Positions 1 through 45,706 of a stretch of DNA of 53,350 nucleotides are shown piece after piece. Origin of the DNA: a virus; the IMG/VR virus record IMGVR_UViG_3300045049_000093, positions 1 to 53,350 of that record. The stretch is one strand, 5' to 3'. Both the position numbers and the translations under genes were made by a program. The notes below the pieces were generated by a model. It was given only the letters and a program-made list of their open reading frames with translations. It was not told where the DNA came from and did no database searches. Position 1 is the first letter of the stretch; each line of letters begins with the position of its first letter.

Positions 1-219
1 GAAAGAACTGCTGGACCTAGCTACCCGGGAAAGGCACCTCACGAGAGGATTAATCCTCTTATACAAATCTGGTGTGAAGATGACGAGTGGTGGCATTGTG
101 TTGATGAGTTTGATGCTGCCCATCTACCGGATATTATAACTAATTTAATAAAAGCTGAAGATGTCGTAGAAATAGAATGGCCAAGTAAAGGTCTTCTTAA
201 AGAGGTTATAAAGAGATGA
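1..219 (+). CDS. C-terminal part of a small protein that continues across the window ends
   Basis: Frame 1 is open from the first base to a TGA at 217-219, giving 72 residues rich in Trp, Glu and Asp. The stop overlaps the ATG of the next gene (ATGA), the coupling used throughout the plus arm. Joined to the ATG at 53339-53341 the protein would be a complete 76-residue chain starting MALV. I recognise no family. A central stretch with two adjacent Trp and several acidic residues suggests a small soluble domain. Confidence is good that it is coding, low for function. Confidence 0.75.
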   Translation, partial: ERTAGPSYPGKAPHERINPLIQIWCEDDEWWHCVDEFDAAHLPDIITNLIKAEDVVEIEWPSKGLLKEVIKR

Positions 220-665
220 GAGTTCTAGTCTGTGGAGGTAGAGATTACGACGATGCAGATCTTCTTCGTCGATCTTTATGGCAACTCCATCTGCAGTCTT
301 TATTTGATTTAGTTATTCAAGGAGGAGCTAGGGGGGCGGATCAATTGGCTGAGCAATGGTGTATGGATCACGCCATCCCGTGTCTCTGCGTTCCTGCTCC
401 TTGGCCCACAAAAGGAAAATCCGCAGGGATCTTGCGAAACCTGCGGATGCTTGAATGGAAGCCAGATTTAGTAGTGGCCTTCCCAGGAGGGAATGGTACT
501 GCTCACATGATTAAGATTGCGGCGGACGCTGGAATACCGCTTTGGCAGCCTCAACAGCATGAGGAGCTACCTTCTCAACTGTCCGACCTGCTACGTATCC
601 CCCGAGACAGATTTTTACCAAGGAAAAGCAGTCATCAACCGTCTGCTGAGTCAAATGAGGACTAG
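216..665 (+). CDS. SLOG-superfamily protein (DUF2493 / YspA type)
   Basis: 149 residues. The Rossmann-like SLOG signature is clear: GGRDY at residues 7-11, GGARGAD at 36-42, RN at 74-75 and FPGGNGTAHM at 89-98. This family is predicted to bind nucleotides or nucleotide-derived ligands such as ADP-ribose, and is frequent in phages; the ligand and reaction here are unknown. The core ends near residue 110. The remaining tail of about 37 residues is hydrophilic and runs antiparallel through the end of the holin gene, which could mean a recently extended C-terminus. It is the last gene of the plus arm and is coupled to the upstream gene by ATGA. A NADAR gene at 45.2 kb belongs to the same ADP-ribose/NAD theme. 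Confidence 0.88.
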   Translation: MRVLVCGGRDYDDADLLRRSLWQLHLQSLFDLVIQGGARGADQLAEQWCMDHAIPCLCVPAPWPTKGKSAGILRNLRMLEWKPDLVVAFPGGNGTAHMIKIAADAGIPLWQPQQHEELPSQLSDLLRIPRDRFLPRKSSHQPSAESNED

Positions 666-19403: not shown

Positions 19404-19478
19404 TGGCTGTACAGCTAGGGATCGAACCTAGGACCCGCTCCTTAACAGGGAGCCGCTCTACCGCTGAGCTACTGCACA
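19404..19478 (-). tRNA. tRNA-Asn (anticodon GTT), CCA encoded
   Basis: A full cloverleaf can be folded by hand on the minus strand. The acceptor TGTGCAG pairs with CTGTACA (one G-U); the D arm is GCTC/GAGC; the anticodon stem GCTCC/GGAGC has loop CTGTTAA, giving anticodon GTT. The variable loop is five bases, the T arm CTAGG/CCTAG has loop TTCGATC, the discriminator is G, and CCA is encoded. It lies between the terminase nuclease gene and a small gene and is transcribed with them. It would supply Asn codons AAC/AAT, which are frequent in the beta-rich virion proteins here. Confidence 0.93.
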
Positions 19479-19534: not shown

Positions 19535-20263
19535 TCAGCCAGCCCAGAAGTCTGGTGGGGACCAGTGGAACCATTGTTTACCATTATAGGTGGGCTCTAC
19601 CTTAGCTCTCTCAATTCCACTCATTACCAGATATCGGAGAGAGTCCATAAGGTGATCGTTCTTTTTAACGACTTGTCCTTTGTCGTCTCTTCGATAAAGT
19701 CTGTATTCTGCGAAGGTACTTGCACATCCTTTAAAGATTTTAAGTCTTCCTTGGCTGAGCATTTCCCAGACTCTGTAGATTCCTGCTTCTCGTGCATTAT
19801 CGGCAATCTCAATATCCAGCCCTAAACCTTGATATAAGGACAGCAATTGGGTTCCGTCCGATTGCATTCTTCCTCGTGCGGCAGGATCGATAACGCCAGG
19901 TATCCATTTTCCTCGGTTAAGGATGGCGGCAGCATGAACGGAGGGTTCTGCCTGTCCACGATAATATTCATCGTACACATACAGCGTACTCGTTTCTCGG
20001 TCATACGCTCCCCATAGCGCTGCTGTACGGTTCCAACCAACGTCCATCCCAAAGCACCTAGGCCAATGCTTGGGAATCTCAAATCCAGTTACTTCAATGT
20101 CCGAAGTAGGTACTTGATATATCGCTCCAGCGCCAAGTTGAGGAACTCCTTTTGTGCGGCTATCTCTCTGCCACGGAGGAATACTTGCAAGTATTGCTTC
20201 TTTAGTTTCTTTCGGTAAGTGCGGGACATCTTCCCATTCCACAAATGTACAGAATTTACTCAT
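19535..20263 (-). CDS. terminase large subunit, nuclease part (split gene)
   Basis: 242 residues forming only the RNase H-like nuclease of a terminase: GMDVGWNRTAALWGAY (first acidic residue D74), YDEYYR (E99), VIDPAARGR (D126) and KNDHLMDSLRYLV (D203/D207). The nuclease cuts concatemeric DNA at the start and end of packaging. In P22-type phages it is fused to the ATPase in one ~500-residue protein; here 266 + 242 residues add up to that length. The ATG overlaps the stop of the ATPase gene as TAATG, so reinitiation should give equal amounts. No intron or intein sequence lies between them. Confidence 0.88.
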   Translation of the reverse strand: MSKFCTFVEWEDVPHLPKETKEAILASIPPWQRDSRTKGVPQLGAGAIYQVPTSDIEVTGFEIPKHWPRCFGMDVGWNRTAALWGAYDRETSTLYVYDEYYRGQAEPSVHAAAILNRGKWIPGVIDPAARGRMQSDGTQLLSLYQGLGLDIEIADNAREAGIYRVWEMLSQGRLKIFKGCASTFAEYRLYRRDDKGQVVKKNDHLMDSLRYLVMSGIERAKVEPTYNGKQWFHWSPPDFWAG

Positions 20264-21063
20264 TAATGTTTGATTTTAAGATCGTCTTCAGTAGCTGGCA
20301 TATACTCAGGCATAAAAGATAGCATAAGATCGGTAAGACCAAGGAGAGGAGTAGCAGTGACGTAAATGATTCCATTAACAGTAAGAGTCCGAAGCAGACA
20401 TTCCGTATAAATATCCATAGGGCACTCTTCATCAAGGTGAATTACGTGCTGTGACGTACCTTGGAAAACTTCTCGACCCTGATCGTAAGACTTGAACTGG
20501 AGATTGCTGAGCCCTCCAGAAGCGTGCTTGACGTATACGTTCTCAATTGCATCAGACAGACCGTGCTTATTAGTCCACCTATGAATGAGCTCCCCAGGAA
20601 TAAGTCCTGTACCATAAGCTTCTGTGTTTCCGTAAGGGCCTATTAGCATTGACTGCATAATATCTCTTACGTTCTTAGCAGTATCTCCTGCCGTCCAAGC
20701 ACTTACTGGGTCTACGAACGTTTTTCCTTCCCACCAATCTGGGTATACACCTGTAAGATGGAGAACCATCTCATATCCACCTGCCAAACTCTTACCAGAA
20801 CGGTTCCCTCCTGCCAGAAGTCTCTCATTATGCATAGCGCCAGCTTTAAAATGGCGCATTTGTTTCGGATACTGAGCTCTAACTTCCGGTGTGCTGAATA
20901 GCTGGTCTATTTTCCTCCGACTCTTCCTCCGATCCACTTCTTCCAATAGCTCTAGGAGCTGCATTTGTTCCTGAGTCGTCAATTTCCCTGACTTCAACTG
21001 TGATTGGAACGATTCCGAGCTTATTGAGGAGATAAGAGAGCTTAGAGTTGAGCTGTTTGTCAC
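20263..21063 (-). CDS. terminase large subunit, ATPase part (split gene)
   Basis: Up to 266 residues. Walker A GGNRSGKS at 85-92, Walker B VIHLDEE at 207-213 and the coupling motif YVTATPL at 234-240 define the packaging ATPase. The chain stops in the linker before the nuclease. The GTG at 21063 gives the longest form and overlaps the small-subunit gene by 185 bases. An ATG at 20964 (residue 34) has AGGA four bases upstream and would give 233 residues and an 86-base overlap. I cannot decide between them from sequence alone. The ATPase drives DNA translocation through the portal. Confidence 0.88.
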   Translation of the reverse strand: MTNSSTLSSLISSISSESFQSQLKSGKLTTQEQMQLLELLEEVDRRKSRRKIDQLFSTPEVRAQYPKQMRHFKAGAMHNERLLAGGNRSGKSLAGGYEMVLHLTGVYPDWWEGKTFVDPVSAWTAGDTAKNVRDIMQSMLIGPYGNTEAYGTGLIPGELIHRWTNKHGLSDAIENVYVKHASGGLSNLQFKSYDQGREVFQGTSQHVIHLDEECPMDIYTECLLRTLTVNGIIYVTATPLLGLTDLMLSFMPEYMPATEDDLKIKH

Positions 21064-32166: not shown

Positions 32167-32195
32167 TTGACAAACCGCATGTATAGGCGTAAAAT
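32167..32195 (+). promoter_or_regulatory. sigma70 promoter for the first plus gene
   Basis: TTGACA (32167-32172), 17 bases, TAAAAT (32190-32195). Start expected near 32202, leaving a leader of about 220 bases before 32421. It points away from the 31.87-kb promoter. Confidence 0.85.
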
Positions 32196-33619: not shown

Positions 33620-33648
33620 GCCTAGGCAACTACTGCCTAGGCTTTTTT
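33620..33648 (+). terminator. intrinsic terminator 3
   Basis: GCCTAGGCA (33620-33628), loop ACTAC, TGCCTAGGC (33634-33642), then six T. The stem may work on both strands because a T run also precedes it on the complementary side only weakly. Confidence 0.9.
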
Positions 33649-34627: not shown

Positions 34628-34656
34628 TTGACAAATGGCGCAGTCTTTGCTATAAT
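34628..34656 (+). promoter_or_regulatory. perfect consensus sigma70 promoter
   Basis: TTGACA (34628-34633), exactly 17 bases, TATAAT (34651-34656). Start expected near 34663. No better match to consensus exists in the window, and no long gene follows it before a terminator. Confidence 0.93.
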
Positions 34657-36261: not shown

Positions 36262-36284
36262 CAGTTCTATAATTTATCTAATAG

Positions 36285-36310
36285 CCCGGATGCCTGTGGT
36301 CCGGGTTTTT
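36285..36310 (+). terminator. intrinsic terminator
   Basis: CCCGGA (36285-36290) and TCCGGG (36300-36305) followed by five T. It separates the secreted-protein gene from the amidoligase operon. Confidence 0.82.
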
Positions 36311-36329: not shown

Positions 36330-36575
36330 ATGCCCAAGCTTAAAAAGCAAGCCAAACACGAAATCCGGACAATAGTTACTACTAAAGGAGGGAATACAGT
36401 GACTGGTGCCTGTATCACAGTACTGTCTCATTTGCTGCCCGGCGCCAAAGCTCTGTGCAATAGAATTCAAGATGGATTGGATAAAGAAGCAATAGCAGCT
36501 CGGGTGTATTTATTTACTGACAACATCCCTGTTTACGCTGCGTACGGTATTGAAGAGAAGCGCAACCATGGCTGA
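36330..36575 (+). CDS. 81-residue protein, first gene of the amidoligase operon
   Basis: ATG with AAGGA seven bases upstream. Alpha/beta pattern (HEIRTIVTTKGGNTVTGACITVLSHLLPGAKALCNRI and RVYLFTDNIPVYAAYGIEE). No family recognised. The stop overlaps the ATG of the first amidoligase by 8 bases, so the two are co-translated; it could be a partner or inhibitor of that enzyme. Confidence 0.6.
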   Translation: MPKLKKQAKHEIRTIVTTKGGNTVTGACITVLSHLLPGAKALCNRIQDGLDKEAIAARVYLFTDNIPVYAAYGIEEKRNHG

Positions 36576-37479
36576 TAAAGATTTTGGCCCCCGTATTGGA
36601 GCTGACCCAGAAGTATTTGTACAAAATAAAGAGGGGATAATTGTCCCTATTTGTGGACACATTGGGGGTACTAAAGAAAAACCAATTGAAATTACTCAGG
36701 ACATCATTAATCTATATGGCCCGGAAAATGGAGCCAGGCGCGGTGTGGTGGCTCAAGGCATTTATGCCATGCAGGAAGATAATGTAATGCTGGAGTTCAA
36801 TATTCCAGCATATACAGAATCTGGAAGGTTCGTGGAGTCCATTAGTAGAGTTCTAGGTTATCTGGAAGCTTCTGTATTGGCTCCCAAAGAACTATCCATT
36901 CGATATGGGGTAGTGGACAATGCGTTCAAATCGGAACTTCTCGAAAGTTTCATGCAATCCAGCACCATCGGCTGTAATCCTGATTTTAACGCCTATGCCA
37001 CCGATGGACGATTCCAAAGGAAAGCATTTTCAGCAATGGATTTCGGCAACCGACGCTTCTGTGGTGGGCATATACACGTACAGTACAACCAGGAGCACGT
37101 GCCGCCTCATATTTTTGCACAGTTCATGGATGTCGTGGCCTGCCTTCCCTATCTCTCTCACGACAAGCAGCGTGGACGTAGATTGTTCTATGGTCAGCCT
37201 GGCCTTTTCCGAATTAAAGATTACGGTATCGAATACCGAACACTCTCCAATTTCTGGTTACATCCGAAATTTCGGGAAAGGTATTTGCAAGGGTTGGCAG
37301 AGAATGTGCTTCGCTTAGCACATTATGCTAATAGCGATCCAGATGTGCTGAAGAAATATTATTCCCGCATAGATTGGGATAAAGTTCAACAGTTTATCAA
37401 GAACGAAGATTCGAAAAAGTCCATTAAATTGTGTCGTGAAATTCAAGATCAAACGGGAATGATTCTAAACATACCATAA
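36568..37479 (+). CDS. COOH-NH2 ligase, phage phiEco32-like type 2 (glutamine-synthetase fold)
   Basis: 303 residues from the ATG at 36568; an ATG at 36550 would add six. The family signature is clear: GADPEVF at 11-17, QEDNVMLEFNIP at 69-80, GCNPDFNAY at 135-143, GGHIHV at 166-171 and YGIEYRTLSNFWL at 219-231. These acidic and His residues are the metal/ATP-binding positions of the glutamine-synthetase-like amidoligase fold, which joins a carboxyl group to an amine with ATP. Substrate unknown. It is the first of at least six enzyme genes in a coupled operon. Confidence 0.88.
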   Translation: MADKDFGPRIGADPEVFVQNKEGIIVPICGHIGGTKEKPIEITQDIINLYGPENGARRGVVAQGIYAMQEDNVMLEFNIPAYTESGRFVESISRVLGYLEASVLAPKELSIRYGVVDNAFKSELLESFMQSSTIGCNPDFNAYATDGRFQRKAFSAMDFGNRRFCGGHIHVQYNQEHVPPHIFAQFMDVVACLPYLSHDKQRGRRLFYGQPGLFRIKDYGIEYRTLSNFWLHPKFRERYLQGLAENVLRLAHYANSDPDVLKKYYSRIDWDKVQQFIKNEDSKKSIKLCREIQDQTGMILNIP

Positions 37480-37480
37480 A

Positions 37481-38155
37481 ATGAAGAAACGACAGTGCGA
37501 TGTGGAGAATATCTCGGACTTCACTCGCTATTATAATAATTCATGGGTAGGATGGCGTGAAAACAACGGCAACGTCACTCCAATTCTAATAGGCAGCCAG
37601 CCTGCCTCCGAGTATGTATCTATTAAACGTCTTACCAGACAAGGCGATATTTTCCAAAATGGTCCATGGCTTCCTGTGAAAATGGATGCAATTAAAGATT
37701 TTGTTGATTTTGGAAGACCGCCTATAGGTATGATGCAAAATAACGGTACTATAGTATTTATGTCTTATTCCACACCTCGACAACCCCACAAGGGATTACG
37801 AACAAGAGAGGTTGGAATAAATCACTTCAACTCCAAAGATATTGCCAAAAAAGTAAACGTACCTATCCCTAGAACTGAGACCAGACTGGATTGGGTTTGG
37901 TATGCGTTTAATCCAGAATATACATCAATTGAAGAAGGATTTAAGCTTCTGGAGAATGGGGAGAAAGTAGGAGTTCCTATCAGTAGAATTCTTGGAATGT
38001 ATTCTGTCCCGGATCGAATACATCCGTATTTAGCGTATAAGAGGTGGACGGTAGGTTACGTAGTTAGTCCTACAGATATCAGACTACACAATGCATACGA
38101 AGAATATAAAGATTACATCCAGAACAAAACTGGAGTTGAGGTAACACTCATATGA
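37481..38155 (+). CDS. 224-residue amidoligase-operon protein
   Basis: No named family. Alpha/beta sequence with TRYYNNSWVGWRENNGNVTPILIGSQPA at the start, a conserved-looking RTREVGINHFNSK, and WVWYAFNPEY. The pattern EGFKLLENGEKVGVPIS..LG suggests a small binding domain. It starts one base after the first amidoligase stop and shares ATGA with the second amidoligase, placing it between two ligases; a peptide-carrier or substrate-binding role is possible. Confidence 0.65.
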   Translation: MKKRQCDVENISDFTRYYNNSWVGWRENNGNVTPILIGSQPASEYVSIKRLTRQGDIFQNGPWLPVKMDAIKDFVDFGRPPIGMMQNNGTIVFMSYSTPRQPHKGLRTREVGINHFNSKDIAKKVNVPIPRTETRLDWVWYAFNPEYTSIEEGFKLLENGEKVGVPISRILGMYSVPDRIHPYLAYKRWTVGYVVSPTDIRLHNAYEEYKDYIQNKTGVEVTLI

Positions 38156-39435
38156 GTCTGGCTCGGGTCCTCGGAAAACAAAGAGGACGACAATCTTTTA
38201 ATCCCGATAGTCGATGGGTACTTCCCAGTGATTTTATGGGATGGGAATTCGAGTACGAAGGAGTTTCTAACAAGGAACTACCTAATCATACGTTTGCGGA
38301 TTTCTGGGAATATCACGAAGAAAGAAGTCTCTACGACAGAGGCGCTGAATATGTTTTTGCGACGCCACTTTTTGGTGCGGACGCTTACAATGCTCTTGCT
38401 TGGCTCGTAGATCACGCCAAGAAACAAGGATGGAGGTGTACTAAGAGAACAGGAATCCATGTACACCAAGATGTACGTGATCTTGAAGTTCCACAATTGG
38501 CTGGATTGTGTATCCTGTACGCAGCCTTGGAACCACTAATCTATAGGTGGATCGGAGATGGTAGGGATACTTCTCACTTCTGTATTCCACTATACAATGC
38601 GGATGAGACCCTTGTAGATGTATGTAAAATCATTAAATCTGCAATAGCGGACGATAAATCCGGAGGAAATCTTACTCTAGCTTTGTCCGATAGCTATAAA
38701 AGATATGCAGGGTTCAACCTGCAATCTTTGTCCAAATTTGGCTCTATAGAATATCGTCACATGCAGACAACTCATGATCTAGATAGGATCATTAATTGGG
38801 GGAATATAATTCTATCTTTAAAGGCCGCTGCCCGTAAGCTTCCGCAAAGCGACGGAGCAGTAGTACGCATGCTAGAAAGGATGGATATTTACGATGTATT
38901 GCATTATGTATTTCCTCCTCACATTGTAACGCTACTGCAGACTCCAGACGCTTACTCTCAGTTTGTAGAAGATGGACTTTCTTCAGCAAGAGATATCGCA
39001 GTTCACGGATGCAGCACTAAAATTGACTGGGTACGATCTTTTGGCCCTAAAGGAGAAAACAGAGGATTTAAAATATGGGTATCTGCCAACAAGACGGAAA
39101 AGGAAAAGAAAATTCAAGACTGGATTGACGATGTAGAAAGAGATGATGATGGTGATGGTGACGGAGAAAATGTGAATCAGGAGGCTAGGGATGAAGGAGA
39201 ATTGTTCCGAGATTTCCATTTTGAACATGTCGCCGTCCCAGGTGCTGAGGCAATAAATCGCCCTCCTGGGAATAGAGTAAATCCCCCTCCTGGGATCGAT
39301 GAAATGTTAGCAAGATTTAATGATGCATTGATCAGACCTAACCAAAGATGGATAGTACAACCTATCCCTCAACCTCAAGGAGCTGGTGCTGTAGTAGCTG
39401 AGGGTGTAGTCCCTCCAGTTACTCCTCGACGATAA
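38152..39435 (+). CDS. Amidoligase_2 family enzyme
   Basis: 427 residues. Signature of the putative amidoligase family: FMGWEFE at 28-34, RGAEYVF at 63-69, RTGIHVH at 99-105, RYAGFNL at 184-190 and GSIEYRHMQTT at 197-207 followed by NW at 215-216. This is a second, different branch of glutamine-synthetase-like amide ligases. After residue ~335 follows an acidic DDDGDGDG stretch and a Pro-rich tail with two near-copies of RPPGNRVNPPPG, probably disordered and maybe itself a modification target. ATGA coupling to the upstream gene. Confidence 0.85.
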   Translation: MSLARVLGKQRGRQSFNPDSRWVLPSDFMGWEFEYEGVSNKELPNHTFADFWEYHEERSLYDRGAEYVFATPLFGADAYNALAWLVDHAKKQGWRCTKRTGIHVHQDVRDLEVPQLAGLCILYAALEPLIYRWIGDGRDTSHFCIPLYNADETLVDVCKIIKSAIADDKSGGNLTLALSDSYKRYAGFNLQSLSKFGSIEYRHMQTTHDLDRIINWGNIILSLKAAARKLPQSDGAVVRMLERMDIYDVLHYVFPPHIVTLLQTPDAYSQFVEDGLSSARDIAVHGCSTKIDWVRSFGPKGENRGFKIWVSANKTEKEKKIQDWIDDVERDDDGDGDGENVNQEARDEGELFRDFHFEHVAVPGAEAINRPPGNRVNPPPGIDEMLARFNDALIRPNQRWIVQPIPQPQGAGAVVAEGVVPPVTPRR

Positions 39436-39454
39436 TTCGATAATTCGATAATTA
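39431..39454 (+). repeat. three tandem GATAATT(C/A) units
   Basis: GATAATTC, GATAATTC, GATAATTA in a row at the stop of the Amidoligase_2 gene, followed by the leader AAATAGGATAATAATT of the next gene. A similar ATAGGATAATTAT leader precedes the genes at 46280 (plus) and 9675 (minus), so it appears to be a favoured ribosome-site context. Confidence 0.6.
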
Positions 39455-39477
39455 TAAAAATAGGATAATAATTACAA

Positions 39478-41088
39478 ATGTGTGGAATTCTTGGTTTCGC
39501 GTCTACAGAGGGAATGAAAAATCGTTCTCTCAAACAAAATTTCTTTGGTACTGGTTTTCCTATGATCGCAGCAGATCGGGGGCAAGACAGTTCAGGATTA
39601 GCTCTTATAGAGAATGCTAATTCTACTCCTATAATTTACAAACGAGCACTTCGTGGGGCAGACTTCATCGACCTGAAGCCTACGATGAGGTACATGAATG
39701 ACATTGAAAAGTATGCCGTTGCTATCGGGCACGTACGATCTGCTACAGCGTCCCGTGGCAATATCACTGACTACAACGCCCACCCATTCCAATACGGTCA
39801 CATTACACTCGTCCATAATGGCCATATTCGTAATGCAAATTCCTTACCAGACTCCAAAGATGCCCAGTCTTCAGTAGATTCAGCTATGGTTGCTTTCTCC
39901 ATGGCTAAAAATGGAGAGAAGGAGACATTAGAGGCGGTAGAAGGGGGGTTCGTATTCGTCTGGTGGAATTCTAAGACTAAAACTCTGAACATTGCCAGGA
40001 ACGAAGAGCGGCCTATTCATATGGCCTATATTGACGGTGAGAATTCTCTTTTCTGGGCTTCAGAATTGACACATTTGGGCCATCTATTGAGGTACGCAAA
40101 TATTGATGAAGATGAGAACAAAGGAGGGTTTTTACATCCTGAACCATCTCATTGGTATGTCTATGATCTCAAGGATTTGAGGAGTTTTGAAAAACGCCCT
40201 TTTGTGAAGCGCCAGGGACGGCGCAATCATGGGACTACGGGCCAGGTGCATGGCAGCGTGAACGCCCATACAACGGGCCATACGGAATTAGACAAAATAT
40301 GGGAGGAAGAGGTCGCAGCCTGGCAAGAGTATCAGAATCAACAATCATCGATGCCAGGGAATATTTCGAAGGAGGAAACCACGGAATCTGCGACGTCTGA
40401 TTCCGATGAACTTACGGAAATTCGAGACAAGCTTCGGCATCAACGATCCAAAGATGCTAAAAAAGCTGGAGTACCTACTTCTCGGAAAGGACTGGAGAAA
40501 GCTAAACAGAAGCTTAGGAATATGGGCATTCAATTTCAAGAATGCCGTCTTTGTTACCCTACTTCTTGGTCTAAATACCATAATCAGCCGAATAGGGGCT
40601 CCATGATTGCAAGGATGCGTAAGGGAGGTTATTTCGTAGAGATTGTAGATACTACTATGGAGCAGTACCAAAGAGCCACAGATGACGGAGCAGTAATTGT
40701 GGAATGTGTGAATGTACGCAACGGAGCACGTGGATACGTGCATGTAGTAGGAATAATGGCTACACATCAAAATGAGACTTATCACAGAATTAAAAATAAA
40801 TATAAAGAAAGCGCAACAGTGGACAAGGAGGCTACGAAGTCTGCTCTAGGAGCTCCTCCTTTAGATTATAACGGCCCATCTGGTCAAAAAATATCTCTAG
40901 CAAAATTTAAGGAACTCACTGTTTCAGGCTGTTCCAATTGCGCTGAAATAATTGAGCCTATAACCCATGAATTTGTTGTGTGGGTAGGAGGCGGGCAGCC
41001 CTTATGCGCAAATTGCTCTACTAACCCTTCAGTACTGGAAAGCGTTGGTTTTCCAGACCACCTGAAACAGCAACAACAGATGCATTAA
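39478..41088 (+). CDS. class II glutamine amidotransferase with C-terminal zinc ribbon
   Basis: 536 residues. MCGILGF places the nucleophile Cys2; RGQDSSG at 34-40, GHVRSAT at 84-90, AHPF at 101-104, HNGHI at 113-117 and D134 complete the Ntn-hydrolase glutaminase. It releases ammonia from glutamine. No asparagine-synthetase or sugar-isomerase domain follows; instead there is a linker, a C356/C359 pair and a C485-C488/C510-C513 zinc ribbon, perhaps for docking a partner or nucleic acid. In this operon the ammonia or glutamyl group probably feeds an amide-forming ligase. Confidence 0.88.
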   Translation: MCGILGFASTEGMKNRSLKQNFFGTGFPMIAADRGQDSSGLALIENANSTPIIYKRALRGADFIDLKPTMRYMNDIEKYAVAIGHVRSATASRGNITDYNAHPFQYGHITLVHNGHIRNANSLPDSKDAQSSVDSAMVAFSMAKNGEKETLEAVEGGFVFVWWNSKTKTLNIARNEERPIHMAYIDGENSLFWASELTHLGHLLRYANIDEDENKGGFLHPEPSHWYVYDLKDLRSFEKRPFVKRQGRRNHGTTGQVHGSVNAHTTGHTELDKIWEEEVAAWQEYQNQQSSMPGNISKEETTESATSDSDELTEIRDKLRHQRSKDAKKAGVPTSRKGLEKAKQKLRNMGIQFQECRLCYPTSWSKYHNQPNRGSMIARMRKGGYFVEIVDTTMEQYQRATDDGAVIVECVNVRNGARGYVHVVGIMATHQNETYHRIKNKYKESATVDKEATKSALGAPPLDYNGPSGQKISLAKFKELTVSGCSNCAEIIEPITHEFVVWVGGGQPLCANCSTNPSVLESVGFPDHLKQQQQMH

Positions 41089-41089
41089 T

Positions 41090-41947
41090 ATGAATGACCA
41101 GCTACAACTTAATAGTAAAGTTCGAAGATTGGAGCCTCAAAATATTTTCGTTTATGGGACATTGAAAGAAGGCTATCCCAATCATTACGCATATTTACAG
41201 GGAGCTAAAAAGCTAGGAATGGCAAAGCTAGAAGGAATAATGTTCCACCTTGGCGGTTTTCCTGCTATCAATCTCTCAGAGCCTTTATCCACTATTCATG
41301 GAGAGGTTTACCAAGTAGATTGGGATGATATTTTAGCAATGGATATGCTTGAAGGAGTGGATAGAGGATTTTATGATAGAATTGAGGTCAAAATTCCTCA
41401 GTACACAAAAGCATGGACTTATATCATGCCCTATCAACGAGTCATGGCTCACGGATACGATGAGGTTATTCCTAGCGGGCTATGGAGGGGACGTGATACC
41501 CCGAAAGTGAAATGGGCTGGATGGAATAAAGGTTTCGAAATTGGTACCTTCGAAACTTCTCCGGAGTCCTCAGACGAGATTAGAATCGGAAATGGAAGTT
41601 CCGAATTTATCCTGAAAAAGAATGTACATAAAGGGACTTACGAGATAACGAATAAGAAAACTGGAGAAATCATAGGAGCTGGTTATAAACATCTTGGAGA
41701 TCGTATTAGTCAAGACGGGGCTCGTAAACCTATTATCCGTCTTCCTGCTAAGACTGTGGAAAATAAAACTGTAGATGATTTAGTAAAAGCACAAGTCACA
41801 GCCAATCATTACAATCCTCCTCCACGAACTACTCCACGTCCAGTCACAGATAAAGACTATCCTGTCGTAGTTAGTAACCCTCCTCCAGTAGAAGAAAAGA
41901 TTCCTAATATTGCTCGACTTCTTGGTATGAAGGTCAAGCAAGCATGA
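41090..41947 (+). CDS. gamma-glutamylcyclotransferase-fold (AIG2/GGCT-like) protein
   Basis: 285 residues. The fold's substrate loop YGTLKEG is at 22-28 and the catalytic Glu at 88 in DMLEGVDRGFYDR; both are conserved. Enzymes of this fold cut gamma-glutamyl amines, releasing 5-oxoproline, or edit gamma-glutamyl links. Residues ~150-285 form an added domain (EIRIGNGSSEFILKKNVHKGTYEI) plus a Pro-rich linker, unknown. It starts one base after the amidotransferase stop. In context it could trim or recycle gamma-glutamyl conjugates made by the ligases. Confidence 0.85.
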   Translation: MNDQLQLNSKVRRLEPQNIFVYGTLKEGYPNHYAYLQGAKKLGMAKLEGIMFHLGGFPAINLSEPLSTIHGEVYQVDWDDILAMDMLEGVDRGFYDRIEVKIPQYTKAWTYIMPYQRVMAHGYDEVIPSGLWRGRDTPKVKWAGWNKGFEIGTFETSPESSDEIRIGNGSSEFILKKNVHKGTYEITNKKTGEIIGAGYKHLGDRISQDGARKPIIRLPAKTVENKTVDDLVKAQVTANHYNPPPRTTPRPVTDKDYPVVVSNPPPVEEKIPNIARLLGMKVKQA

Positions 41948-42066
41948 ACGGAAAGGCTTTTGCTTATAGGATTTGGAAAATCCACGTAATAGGATGTTTA
42001 ACCAGTTCTTGCGATAAATGCTTATATAACTGGTCTATAGGAAATTTGAGAGGCTACGTGGGATGA
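41944..42066 (+). CDS. 40-residue Cys-containing peptide
   Basis: ATG at 41944 overlaps the stop of the GGCT gene (ATGA), and the stop at 42064-42066 overlaps the next ATG at 42063 in the same way. It holds a CLTSSCDKC cluster and aromatic residues (YNW, AYRIWK). Its placement between enzyme genes with perfect coupling makes it a candidate substrate peptide for the ligases as well as a small metal-binding protein. Confidence 0.6.
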   Translation: MNGKAFAYRIWKIHVIGCLTSSCDKCLYNWSIGNLRGYVG

Positions 42067-42365
42067 GATTCTCAAATGAGTACGGATTCTGTGAAATTAA
42101 CTCCATCCCAGGCTGTACGCAGCTTGCTATCTTCAACCATGCCTTTATCTACAAGGAACATAGAGGAAAGGGTCATGGCCTGGATAATCACAAATTACGG
42201 CTTAAAAGAGCCAAGCAAATGGGCTACGATTGCGCGATGTGTACGGTTAGAGCCGGCAATGAAGCTCAAATTGCTATACTCAGATCAAATGGATGGACCA
42301 GAGTATTTGAGTTCCATAACACAGAGACAGAGCACGATGTCCAAGTGTGGATGAGAAAGCTATGA
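42063..42365 (+). CDS. GNAT-family N-acetyltransferase
   Basis: 100 residues, a minimal GNAT. The acyl-CoA pyrophosphate loop is HRGKGHG at 33-39, followed by a helix (DNHKLRLKRAKQMGY), a strand (CAMCTVRAGNE) and the terminal AQIAILRSNGW at 68-78. It would acetylate an amine, or transfer another acyl or aminoacyl group, as GNAT relatives do in peptide-ligation operons. ATGA coupling on both sides ties it to the ATP-grasp gene. Confidence 0.85.
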   Translation: MRFSNEYGFCEINSIPGCTQLAIFNHAFIYKEHRGKGHGLDNHKLRLKRAKQMGYDCAMCTVRAGNEAQIAILRSNGWTRVFEFHNTETEHDVQVWMRKL

Positions 42366-43252
42366 AGCAAGATAAATTCCAGCATTATGATGTGGTGATC
42401 TATGCAGCTAGAGATTCTAATGGCGCCCGACGACTCGCTACCGCTCTTGGCAGTCGTAGGTGGCGAGACGATTTGCCTGAGAGGTATACAAGGCGCCGCC
42501 CTTACTTCCGAGGGAATCCTAGTCCACTGGTGGTTAACTGGGGATCATCTACACATCCGAAGTGGCTCGAAGACCCTAGATTTCGACTTGAGCCAGTGTT
42601 CCTTAACCATGGTGACCGTGTTAAAGAGGCAATTGACAAACTTGCTTTCTTTCGGAAAGCATCCAAAATTGATGGGATACCTCTGCTCCGCTGGACGACA
42701 GAGAGAAGCCAGGCTGAAGCTTGGATCGGAAAAGGCAAATCAGTTATCGCGAGAACCACTCTTCGAGGGTCCTCTGGAGAGGGAATAGTTCTTATCAATC
42801 CAGGGAAGGAACTCATCGAAGCTCCTCTCTATACCAGATATTACCCAAAGACCCACGAATTCCGAGTTCATGTATTCGATGGGAGAGTGATCGATTTTAC
42901 TCAGAAACGGTTCAAAGGAGGTAAAGATGCACGATCAATTGCTGGCGAGCGTACTATTGTTCGGTCTCACAGTAACGGTTGGGTTCATACTCATGGGGAT
43001 CTGGAACTCATTGAAGATGGACTTACGTCCGTTTCAAAGACTTGTTGTAATCTTATTTCTGAGCTTGGCCTTGTATTCGGTGCTGTGGATGTCATGGCCA
43101 TTCTTGAGCCACCCGATGCCGACTGTAAAAGGAGATTGCGTAATTACGTTATCTGCGAGGTGAATACGGGTCCTGGACTAGAAAATACCCAGACCATTGA
43201 AGCTTATAAAACAGCTATTCTTTCTATGAAGACGAGTTCTTTGAAACCATGA
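42362..43252 (+). CDS. ATP-grasp ligase (RimK-like)
   Basis: 296 residues from the ATG at 42362, which overlaps the GNAT stop as ATGA; a GTG at 42347 would add five. LVVNWGSS at 56-63 resembles the pre-ATP-grasp domain; VIARTTLRGSSGEGIVLI at 128-145 is the ATP-clamp loop; YYPKTHEFRVHVFDGRVIDFTQKR at 160-183 is the second lobe; FGAVDVMAI at 239-247 and CEVNTGPGLENTQT at 265-278 hold the metal-binding Asp, Glu and Asn. Such enzymes form amide bonds through an acyl phosphate. It supplies a third, unrelated ligase to the operon. Confidence 0.88.
   Translation: MKQDKFQHYDVVIYAARDSNGARRLATALGSRRWRDDLPERYTRRRPYFRGNPSPLVVNWGSSTHPKWLEDPRFRLEPVFLNHGDRVKEAIDKLAFFRKASKIDGIPLLRWTTERSQAEAWIGKGKSVIARTTLRGSSGEGIVLINPGKELIEAPLYTRYYPKTHEFRVHVFDGRVIDFTQKRFKGGKDARSIAGERTIVRSHSNGWVHTHGDLELIEDGLTSVSKTCCNLISELGLVFGAVDVMAILEPPDADCKRRLRNYVICEVNTGPGLENTQTIEAYKTAILSMKTSSLKP
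42927..43163 (+). CDS. possible nested two-TM protein inside the ATP-grasp gene
   Basis: In the +1 frame of the ATP-grasp gene an ATG at 42927 is preceded by AAAGGAGGT, a near-perfect ribosome site with 4-5 bases spacing. The 78 residues form two hydrophobic segments (LLASVLLFGLTVTVGFILMGI and LVVILFLSLALYSVLWMSWPF) with basic residues between and after. This is the layout of a small holin or inner-membrane protein. The match could be a by-product of the coding sequence. Confidence 0.35.
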   Translation: MHDQLLASVLLFGLTVTVGFILMGIWNSLKMDLRPFQRLVVILFLSLALYSVLWMSWPFLSHPMPTVKGDCVITLSAR

Positions 43253-44052
43253 ATTATCCCAAAATTGTAGATAATAATATTTGGATTGAATTTCCAAAAC
43301 TTAAAAGAGAGGGGCATTTCTTAGCTTCAGCACTGGTTGGTGGGGTCTCTTTAGGATGTCACGCAGGATCTATTACTGGTGTAAGTATAAATTCTGGTAT
43401 GAACAAATGGATTAAATCCACAGATCCTAATTACGTAATACCATATACGTTTAATTCGTATTCGGGCTGTTATATACCTCCGACGGAAGAAGTATTGAAA
43501 ATACAGAAAATATTGGACGAAAGATCTAATGAAATAGTTGGAGATGTATTCTTCAAAAAATTGGTGGATAATTGTAATGCTGCAATATACGTACTTAGTG
43601 ATGCAATTAACTATAAGTCCACGGCTAGGGCAGGAGGTGTCACTTTTGAAGAAAAGAAGAAGTCTCTGAATTCTGCTGGTAGAGCATGTTTTGAATACAA
43701 AACGAGCGATTTCGCTAAATATCTGATAAAGAATAAAATCGGATATGTAATGGAATCTCCAATTGTACAGAATCGTAATCACGTAACTTACGGGAATTAT
43801 TCGCTCAATCAATTATGGATTTGGGTACCTGAGCACAGTCTTAGACGTGCCATATTAGTGGAAGGACATCATGGAAAGGAAAAATTTCCTACTAGGGAAG
43901 AATGGGAGAAGGAGATAGGACTGGATTTTAGTCTTGCTAGTAAATATGTGCCAAGTGTACCTCCCAACACGACTATTGAGAAACTTGCTTTTGATGATGG
44001 CAGATATCCTGATAACGTAAAATTCAAAGAAGAAAAGAGTAAACCAGCATGA
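43249..44052 (+). CDS. 267-residue protein of the amidoligase operon
   Basis: Family not recognised. The middle (NAAIYVLSDAINYKSTARAGGVTFEEKKKSLNSAGRACFEYKTSDFAKYLI) is helical; the region LWIWVPEHSLRRAILVEGHHG could be a beta-hairpin with a His pair, and TREEWEKEIG opens the C-terminal helix. ATGA coupling to the ATP-grasp gene and to the next gene indicates shared function, perhaps the protein or peptide that is modified. Confidence 0.6.
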   Translation: MNYPKIVDNNIWIEFPKLKREGHFLASALVGGVSLGCHAGSITGVSINSGMNKWIKSTDPNYVIPYTFNSYSGCYIPPTEEVLKIQKILDERSNEIVGDVFFKKLVDNCNAAIYVLSDAINYKSTARAGGVTFEEKKKSLNSAGRACFEYKTSDFAKYLIKNKIGYVMESPIVQNRNHVTYGNYSLNQLWIWVPEHSLRRAILVEGHHGKEKFPTREEWEKEIGLDFSLASKYVPSVPPNTTIEKLAFDDGRYPDNVKFKEEKSKPA

Positions 44053-44258
44053 AGATTCGTTTTACGGGTGAGTTAGAATTTACAGAGAGTCCAGATGACA
44101 AAGGAAGCGTGGATGTGTGGCTCTGCAATAGCTTAGGAGCAGTAAATCACCTAGAAACAGATGAAGCTTTTGATAAGCTTAAATTGAAGTGGGTAGAAGT
44201 TCGTCCTCGTGGTCGTCCTAAAAAGGTGAAAGACAATGACCAAAATAGTGAAGTGTGA
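44049..44258 (+). CDS. 69-residue protein with basic tail
   Basis: ATGA overlap with the upstream gene. A beta-rich start (MKIRFTGELEFTES) and a C-terminal RPRGRPKKVKDND, an AT-hook-like basic motif suggesting contact with DNA or RNA minor groove. Function unknown. Confidence 0.6.
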   Translation: MKIRFTGELEFTESPDDKGSVDVWLCNSLGAVNHLETDEAFDKLKLKWVEVRPRGRPKKVKDNDQNSEV

Positions 44259-44373
44259 TTGCAAGAATAGCTATCAAGACCAGAAGTACGGGCAAGGTAT
44301 GCGTGTGATGAATATGGCACTGAAGCCGCCATCTTGGCGATGCACAGTCTGTGGGAAAACTCATCCACGGTAG
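44236..44373 (+). CDS. 45-residue zinc-ribbon protein
   Basis: ATG at 44236 with AAGGTG eight bases upstream. CDC at 7-9 and CTVC at about 36-39 form a small zinc ribbon around a basic, Met-rich loop (KYGQGMRVMNMA). Similar tiny zinc ribbons occur in many phages without known function. It overlaps the AT-hook-like gene by 23 bases and ends the coupled operon. Confidence 0.7.
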   Translation: MTKIVKCDCKNSYQDQKYGQGMRVMNMALKPPSWRCTVCGKTHPR

Positions 44374-44838: not shown

Positions 44839-45228
44839 ATGACAGGTGAGCATATGAAAACCGAGGCGCACTCATCGGATCGGGACTTCACAGACAAGAA
44901 ACGCCTTGACTGGCTGGAGAAGCAGGCGTTGCACCCTGACGGCATTGTCTTACATGACGGCAATAAGGTTGTCGTACAGCGGTTTCGCAAGAAACCAGTA
45001 GTAATTGAGGCCATGCAATATACGGCCGAGAGTTGCCGCCGTATCTGCGAATGGGCAGGTCTTGAACATGGCGCTTATAACGAGAGCTGCGGCGTATTCC
45101 CGTTGATCATTCCAACTCTCGAAGGCCCTCATAACGCCAATCCCGGCGACTGGATCATCAAGGGCGTGAAGGGTGAGTTCTATCCCTGTAAGCCTGACAT
45201 CTTCGAGGCGACGTATGAGCCAGCGTGA
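44839..45228 (+). CDS. phage protein with PGDWIIKGVKGEFYPCKPDIF domain
   Basis: 129 residues from the ATG at 44839 (AAAGGA eight bases upstream); frames further upstream overlap the previous gene. Residues 15-40 (DFTDKKRLDWLEKQALHPDGIVL) are a short helical module. From QRFRKKPVVIEAMQYT to the end is a domain common in phages, with the conserved PGDWI..G..GEFYPCKPDIFEATY end. Its biochemical role is unknown. It is the first gene of a GC-rich cassette. Confidence 0.7.
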   Translation: MTGEHMKTEAHSSDRDFTDKKRLDWLEKQALHPDGIVLHDGNKVVVQRFRKKPVVIEAMQYTAESCRRICEWAGLEHGAYNESCGVFPLIIPTLEGPHNANPGDWIIKGVKGEFYPCKPDIFEATYEPA

Positions 45229-45706
45229 CCCGTTGTCCAAGGAAAACCGCCTCACTCTCGACACTGACAGTCGGGTGTTCTTTTACGAGCAAGACCATTA
45301 CTACCTATCGAATTTCTCCCCTTTCCGCCTGAGCTGGAAGGGGCAGGACTTCGATACGTCAGAGCATGTGTACCACTGGGAGAAGTTTCCGCACGATCAA
45401 TTCATCCAGCGGGACATTCGTACGGCCCGATCCGCGCACGATGCATTCAAGATCGCGGAGGTGTATCGGAAAGTCCGCCGTGCCGACTGGGACGAAGTCA
45501 AGGTCGACATCATGCGCGCCATCCTGTGCGCCAAGGTGAGCCAGCACGAGTATGTCCGTCGCAAGCTTCTCGAAACTGGCGATCGTGCGCTCATCGAGAA
45601 TTCCTGGCGGGACGATTACTGGGGATGGGGACCTAACCGAGATGGACGCAACATGCTCGGTGTCTTGTGGCAGCAGGTACGCCGCGAACTGAGGGCTCAA
45701 TCATGA
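45215..45706 (+). CDS. NADAR-family protein (YbiA-like)
   Basis: 163 residues from the ATG at 45215. The family pattern is complete: YLSNFSPF at 30-37, a Glu at 50 in SEHVYHWEKF, AFKIAEVYRKVRRADWDEVKVDIM at 77-100, TGDRALIENS at 121-130, DDYWGWG at 133-139 and GRNMLGVLW at 144-152. NADAR proteins are N-glycosidases or ADP-ribose-processing enzymes; some remove ADP-ribose from guanine in DNA and so reverse DarT-type toxins. Here it may protect phage DNA or process NAD derivatives. Overlaps genes on both sides. Confidence 0.9.
   Translation: MSQRDPLSKENRLTLDTDSRVFFYEQDHYYLSNFSPFRLSWKGQDFDTSEHVYHWEKFPHDQFIQRDIRTARSAHDAFKIAEVYRKVRRADWDEVKVDIMRAILCAKVSQHEYVRRKLLETGDRALIENSWRDDYWGWGPNRDGRNMLGVLWQQVRRELRAQS

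Follow-up and report, generated by a model that had tools for sequence, protein, structure and literature searches.

The window analysed here is the whole of IMG/VR record IMGVR_UViG_3300045049_000093 (53,350 bases), and it derives from a tailed phage, since profile searches recognize a portal, a major head protein and a terminase among its products. Its replication block comprises a primase, a helicase and a family A-like DNA polymerase. The large terminase is encoded as two abutting ORFs on the minus strand (19535-21063; Terminase_6N at 20263-21063 and Terminase_6C at 19535-20263), and a tRNA-Asn(gtt) is found by this split terminase at 19404-19478. The region of interest, positions 36568-44373, consists of eleven tightly coupled ORFs (g1 to g11), all on the plus strand, in the place where the initial annotation had put an amidoligase operon. 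The genes are intact and form an operon-like run: the ATGA overlaps between stop and start that had been claimed for most of them are seen at 6 of the 10 junctions (g2/g3, g5/g6, g6/g7, g7/g8, g8/g9 and g9/g10, with g7/g8 presuming that g8 starts at ATG 42362), while g1/g2 and g4/g5 are spaced by 1 base each, g3/g4 by 42 bases, and g10/g11 overlap by 23 bases. A terminator-like hairpin (36283..36307, plus strand) stands immediately 5' of the module; it is one of three strong hairpins of this kind in the early region, the others being at 33620 and 35512. The early region also holds two extended -10 sigma-70 promoters on the plus strand, a perfect one (12/12) at 34628-34656 and one with 11/12 matches at 32167-32195.

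The first gene, g1 (36568..37479, plus strand), encodes a COOH-NH2 ligase with a glutamine-synthetase (GS) fold, which we propose to be a gamma-glutamyl ligase. It matches PF14395 (E = 1.1e-7) and phrog_3815 (1.1e-46), and its catalytic signatures (D13/E15, E76, GGHIH and EYR) are intact and invariant in alignments with the named phages and with 70 loci. The AF2 model (pLDDT 91) displays the GS fold together with these signatures; its best PDB matches in a fold search are glutamine synthetases, YbdK and gamma-glutamylmethylamide synthetase, with modest Foldseek TM-scores of ~0.4. These relatives came from the fold search alone, sequence profiles of g1 having found no relative in the PDB. Solved members of the GS fold activate the gamma-carboxyl of glutamate, and the predicted fold and active-site pattern of g1 fit a putative gamma-glutamyl ligase of the Puu type.

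Three further enzymes are encoded by g3, g4 and g8, all on the plus strand. The product of g3 (38152..39435) is an Amidoligase_2 enzyme, again a GS-like ligase, recognized by Pfam (PF12224, 2.7e-6) and PHROG (phrog_7469, 2.6e-41), in which the ExExE, HxH and ExR signatures are intact and invariant in the alignment; its acidic, Pro-rich C-terminal tail is not conserved. The product of g4 (39478..41088) is a class II glutamine amidotransferase identified by Pfam (GATase_6, 1.5e-18) and PHROG, with Cys2 as the nucleophile, a C-terminal tail carrying two CxxC motifs, and intact, invariant Cys2, GHxRxAT, AHPF and HNG signatures in the alignment. For g8 (42362..43252) we take the ATG that overlaps the g7 stop as the start, the mechanically called ORF beginning at GTG 42347. 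It encodes a RimK-like ATP-grasp ligase: the Pfam HMM search gives no match, but it matches phrog_2599 (3e-59), and its profile A2 finds RimK among the PDB entries (3e-7).

Between g4 and g8 lies g5 (41090..41947, plus strand), a GGCT-fold gamma-glutamyl(amine) cyclotransferase (GGACT, PF06094, 3.6e-20) with a C-terminal extension of ~150 residues and with Glu88 conserved and intact in the alignment. The families assigned at the outset therefore hold up in HMM searches, directly for the COOH-NH2 ligase, Amidoligase_2, the class II GATase and GGCT, and by way of PHROG and RimK rather than Pfam for the ATP-grasp ligase; the catalytic residues first judged intact by eye prove invariant in the alignments of g1, g3, g4 and g5. 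The GNAT call is weaker. The small protein encoded by g7 (42063..42365, plus strand) scores below the Pfam cut-off (E 0.034, 14.9 bits against 20.7) and only weakly as an acetyltransferase in PHROG (8e-4).

The remaining ORFs, all on the plus strand, were assessed with iterative profiles, one per window gene, run over 160 loci collected from IMG/VR with g8 or g1 as the seed. The 40-residue g6 (41944..42066) has no homologue in any of them and is doubtful as a functional part. The 267-residue g9 (43249..44052) is confined to the closest phages (3 of the 44 g1-seeded loci that are 18 kb or longer), g10 (44049..44258, 69 residues) has no relatives among the 160 loci, and homologues of the 45-residue, Cys-rich g11 (44236..44373) occur in 8 scattered loci. 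GNAT homologues are found in ~15 of the 160 loci at shifting positions, and a capping step by g7 as part of the core logic was rejected for this reason; g7 is better described as an accessory. Also rejected, for lack of conservation, were the three targets of modification that had been suggested, namely the Cys-containing peptide g6, g9 and the Pro-rich tail of g3. This bears on a possible role of the module in protein tagging, in which amino acids would be added to a host or phage protein for takeover or protection, much as S6 is modified by RimK: RimK and alpha-L-glutamate ligases are the nearest PDB entries to g8, and protein modification reportedly figures in Iyer-type predictions, but the neighbourhood offers no conserved candidate target, and we consider this possibility unlikely.

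In the IMG/VR loci the core of the module consists of g1, g2, g3, g4 and g8, which is also the commonest gene order. Co-occurrence of the module genes is far above chance, and they are associated across phages rather than scattered; among the g1-seeded loci that are 18 kb or longer, all 44 have g3, g4 and g8, while 32 have GGCT and 7 have GNAT. The module is also widespread: relatives of g3 and g8 occur in 324 and 308 GenBank phage records, respectively, and those of g8 and g1 in more than 500 IMG/VR stretches each. The presence of all six enzymes had been regarded as unusually complete, but five of these genes are the ordinary core of a published cassette and the GNAT lies outside it; on this point and on the targets the initial annotation was overstated, while its locations and enzyme families hold. 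Since g3, g4 and g8 persist in some loci without g1, g2 or a gamma-glutamyl remover (see below), these three represent the minimal core. One lineage (L033, L048, L051, L055, L057, L079 and L080) carries only a long Amidoligase_2 (~520 aa), a short class II GATase without the zinc tail, and the ATP-grasp ligase, and is possibly the minimal form of the system.

The core gene that had been missed is g2 (37481..38155, plus strand), a protein without assigned function (phrog_4877/phrog_11055) which, from PHROG, locus profiles and an AF2 model, we propose to be a non-catalytic partner. A single-sequence search of IMG/VR with g2 returned no relatives, but profiles built from its neighbours did find them. 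The gene is present in 24 of the 44 long g1-seeded loci, accompanies g1 in every lineage of the g8 tree except one, and has an equivalent between g1 and g3, or close to that site, in the named phages used for comparison. Its model is confident (pLDDT 92.5), and the fold search gives no PDB match at E<=0.001, with only a slight resemblance to beta-barrels; as a core gene, g2 merits a structure. The two-CxxC tail of g4 is frequent in company with g2 (66 of 80 long copies with both g1 and g2) and rare in the g1 lineage that lacks it (2 of 25 long copies). There may thus be a link between g2 and the GATase tail, although few lineages stand behind these counts.

The combination of enzymes is not new, as the same set has been published in phiEco32-, LUZ24-, RIO-1- and PA11-like podoviruses, where 'peptidoglycan modification' is its predicted role. 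Descriptions of this cassette reportedly follow Iyer 2009 and Hardies 2013. It is described for UFV-P2 and further LUZ24-like phages (PMC3890496), for TC6/PA11 (PMC6209634), for U17 (PMC11945000) and for HP1, there under the name 'peptidoglycan modification cassette' (PMC5498523), and in the literature on cassette phages we found no tested activity for any of its members. In the window, as in the phiEco32/LUZ24/RIO-1-type cassette, the PF14395 and PF12224 ligases, the class II GATase, the ATP-grasp ligase and GGCT are clustered on one strand; the order g1-g2-g3-g4-g8 is that of the named phages, whereas the position of GGCT differs. The early strand of UFV-P2 (ORF21-29, PMC3890496) carries, one after another and ahead of primase/helicase as in the window, the genes for the COOH-NH2 ligase, g2, Amidoligase_2, GATase II, ATP-grasp and GGCT, but the proteins are only ~16-35% identical to ours, and the window differs in having GGCT between the GATase and the ATP-grasp ligase with a C-terminal extension, in having the GNAT and g9 as extras, and in being without an HNH insert. 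The RIO-1/PSA-HP1 'peptidoglycan modification cassette', to the extent that Hardies 2013 is relayed in PMC5498523, has the same enzymes including a 'gamma-glutamyl amidoligase' and GGCT; in RIO-1, GGCT and the GATase lead the cassette, and the amidoligase and ATP-grasp genes overlap. PA11/TC6 (Zobellviridae; PMC6209634) share g1, g2, g3, GATase II and ATP-grasp, but have a Peptidase_C26 annotated as glutamine amidotransferase, and no GGCT was detected in the stretch examined. The link to phiEco32 that had been suspected is borne out, phages of this type (e.g. KarlSchell_Bas89) having the full set of g1-g4, g8 and GGCT in the same core order; they differ in their inserted HNH endonucleases, in the placement of GGCT after the ATP-grasp ligase, and in long extra tails on the ATP-grasp ligase and GATase. 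Megablast of the region against the named phages gave no match.

The module adjoins replication genes, and amino-acid-bearing bases exist in other phages; both points can be counted in favour of a modification of phage DNA bases. However, 11 of the 16 restriction enzymes tried on the genomic DNA of U17, which is LUZ24-like and has the module, were able to cut it (PMC11945000), and because of this a DNA target appears highly improbable.

What is added to the known cassette, besides g2 as a core gene, is a regularity in the enzymes that accompany g1. The gene adjoining the module in TC6, CW02, T5S1 and QDWS535 encodes a Peptidase_C26 of the PuuD/gamma-glutamyl hydrolase family, with an invariant Cys-His-Glu triad in the alignment and with Lin1909 and PuuD as PDB matches of its profile. 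Relatives without GGCT nearly always have such a C26 gene beside the module, while a search of the window finds no C26, GGCT being there instead. In the 76 non-redundant loci that bear g1, 23 have both removers, 24 GGCT only and 28 C26 only, so that at least one is present in 75; the sole locus with neither (L158) is on a 22-kb fragment (Fisher p 9e-6 for the alternation). State changes on the g8 tree number 12 for GGCT and 11 for C26. When independent evolution is simulated on this tree with matched margins, 12 loci on average are left with neither remover, and none of 700 runs falls to 1 or fewer; if the margins are not matched, p is ~0.013. Conversely, g1, g2, g3, g4 and g8 are present in each of the 71 loci that were seeded with C26 and extend far enough downstream.

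A remover is found in only 1 of 14 loci without g1. Mere truncation of these loci was rejected as an explanation with whole contigs: g1 was held elsewhere in 3 of 15 and absent from 12 (a 16th, L158, served as g1-positive check), and these 12 have C26 in none and GGCT in 1. Since g1 was lost in only about three independent events on the tree, the link between g1 and a remover rests mainly on the GGCT/C26 alternation; for a sign test, the tree yields too few independent pairs of g1 and remover to give significance. The two removers are not strictly interchangeable, as 23 of the 76 loci keep both, and both families also contain members with other or unassigned activities. One or the other of two unrelated enzymes is retained alongside g1, and both are missing where g1 is; the simplest reading is that g1 makes a gamma-glutamyl amide which they cleave. 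The pattern thus suggests that g1 attaches a gamma-glutamyl group that GGCT or C26 would take off again, and lends support to the earlier proposal of ligases building gamma-linked amides with the GGCT-fold enzyme as editor. The C26 genes at L003:3847-4467, L004:235-882, L007:4384-4998 and L005:2535-2993, whose annotations read glutamine amidotransferase or peptidase, are on these sequence grounds probably gamma-glutamyl hydrolases tied to the module, and such annotations in these phages can be re-labelled in this sense. As far as the descriptions of the cassette that follow Iyer 2009 and Hardies 2013 show, the alternation is new.

The same kinds of enzymes are known to be paired elsewhere, a GS-type ligase with a C26 enzyme in PuuA/PuuD and an ATP-grasp ligase with GGCT in BtrJ/BtrG. 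In the polyamine route and in the butirosin step a ligase adds a gamma-glutamyl group that the C26 or GGCT-fold enzyme removes; to us this is an analogy only. Taken literally, and with the match of the C26 profile to PuuD, it would have the module make or remodel a polyamine-like or antibiotic-like small molecule via gamma-glutamylated intermediates. However, no oxidase, dehydrogenase or carrier protein (such as those of the Puu and butirosin pathways) was recognized in the module, nor by eye among the enriched neighbouring families, which were HMM-scanned in part, and no acyl carrier domain was found among the module proteins scanned with Pfam and PHROG; we regard a small-molecule product as decidedly improbable.

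The conserved block thus comprises three ligases (g1 and g3 of the glutamine-synthetase type, g8 a RimK-like ATP-grasp enzyme), the glutaminase g4 and the GGCT-fold g5, the catalytic signatures being intact in all five including g8, together with the partner g2, whose fold is unmatched. Our preferred reading, to which we assign a probability of slightly under one half, is that the module makes and edits unusual amide bonds in the course of host takeover by the phage, with g1 as the enzyme that adds gamma-glutamyl and GGCT or C26 as the one that takes it off. In this scheme g4 would release ammonia and glutamate from glutamine, and g3 and g8 would perform the main ligation (amidation and amino-acid addition), a role assigned to them because some phages retain both, together with g4, when all the rest is missing. 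With g2, g1 would link the gamma-carboxyl of a glutamate to an amine on the substrate or on an intermediate, and the GGCT-fold enzyme of the window, or the PuuD-type C26 hydrolase of its relatives, would take the glutamate off as a deprotection, an edit or a reversal. The most economical substrate is that of the published guess, peptidoglycan side chains or cell-wall peptides. More tentatively, there may be a viral protect-and-release cycle, in which g1 and g2 install gamma-glutamyl on an intermediate of g3, g4 and g8 that GGCT or C26 must then remove; if true, this would be a pathway logic that we have not found recorded in the cassette literature.

In the published reading, the ligases would build three unusual side-chain linkages in peptidoglycan, blocking superinfection or preparing lysis, and GGCT and the GATase would degrade or recycle rather than protect and deprotect. 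This account, put forward for phages of the phiEco32 and RIO-1 types and taken up again in PMC5498523, PMC11945000 and PMC10580990, agrees with the expression of the cassette immediately on infection in the RIO-1-like HP1 (PMC7082346), but by itself it leaves unexplained why a gamma-glutamyl remover accompanies g1 and is missing when g1 is, and we find it rather doubtful as it stands. For the making and editing of amide bonds, the alternation renders the product of g1 directly testable, as a gamma-glutamyl amide cleaved by both enzymes, in a cassette that is widespread and immediately expressed in at least one phage.

Two other genes of this phage encode domains related to nucleotide derivatives: close 3' of the module a NADAR-domain protein, an ADP-ribose-related domain (45173-45706, plus strand; PF08719, 3e-31), and at 216-665 (plus strand) a YspA/YAcAr protein of the SLOG family (PF10686, 3.5e-14).
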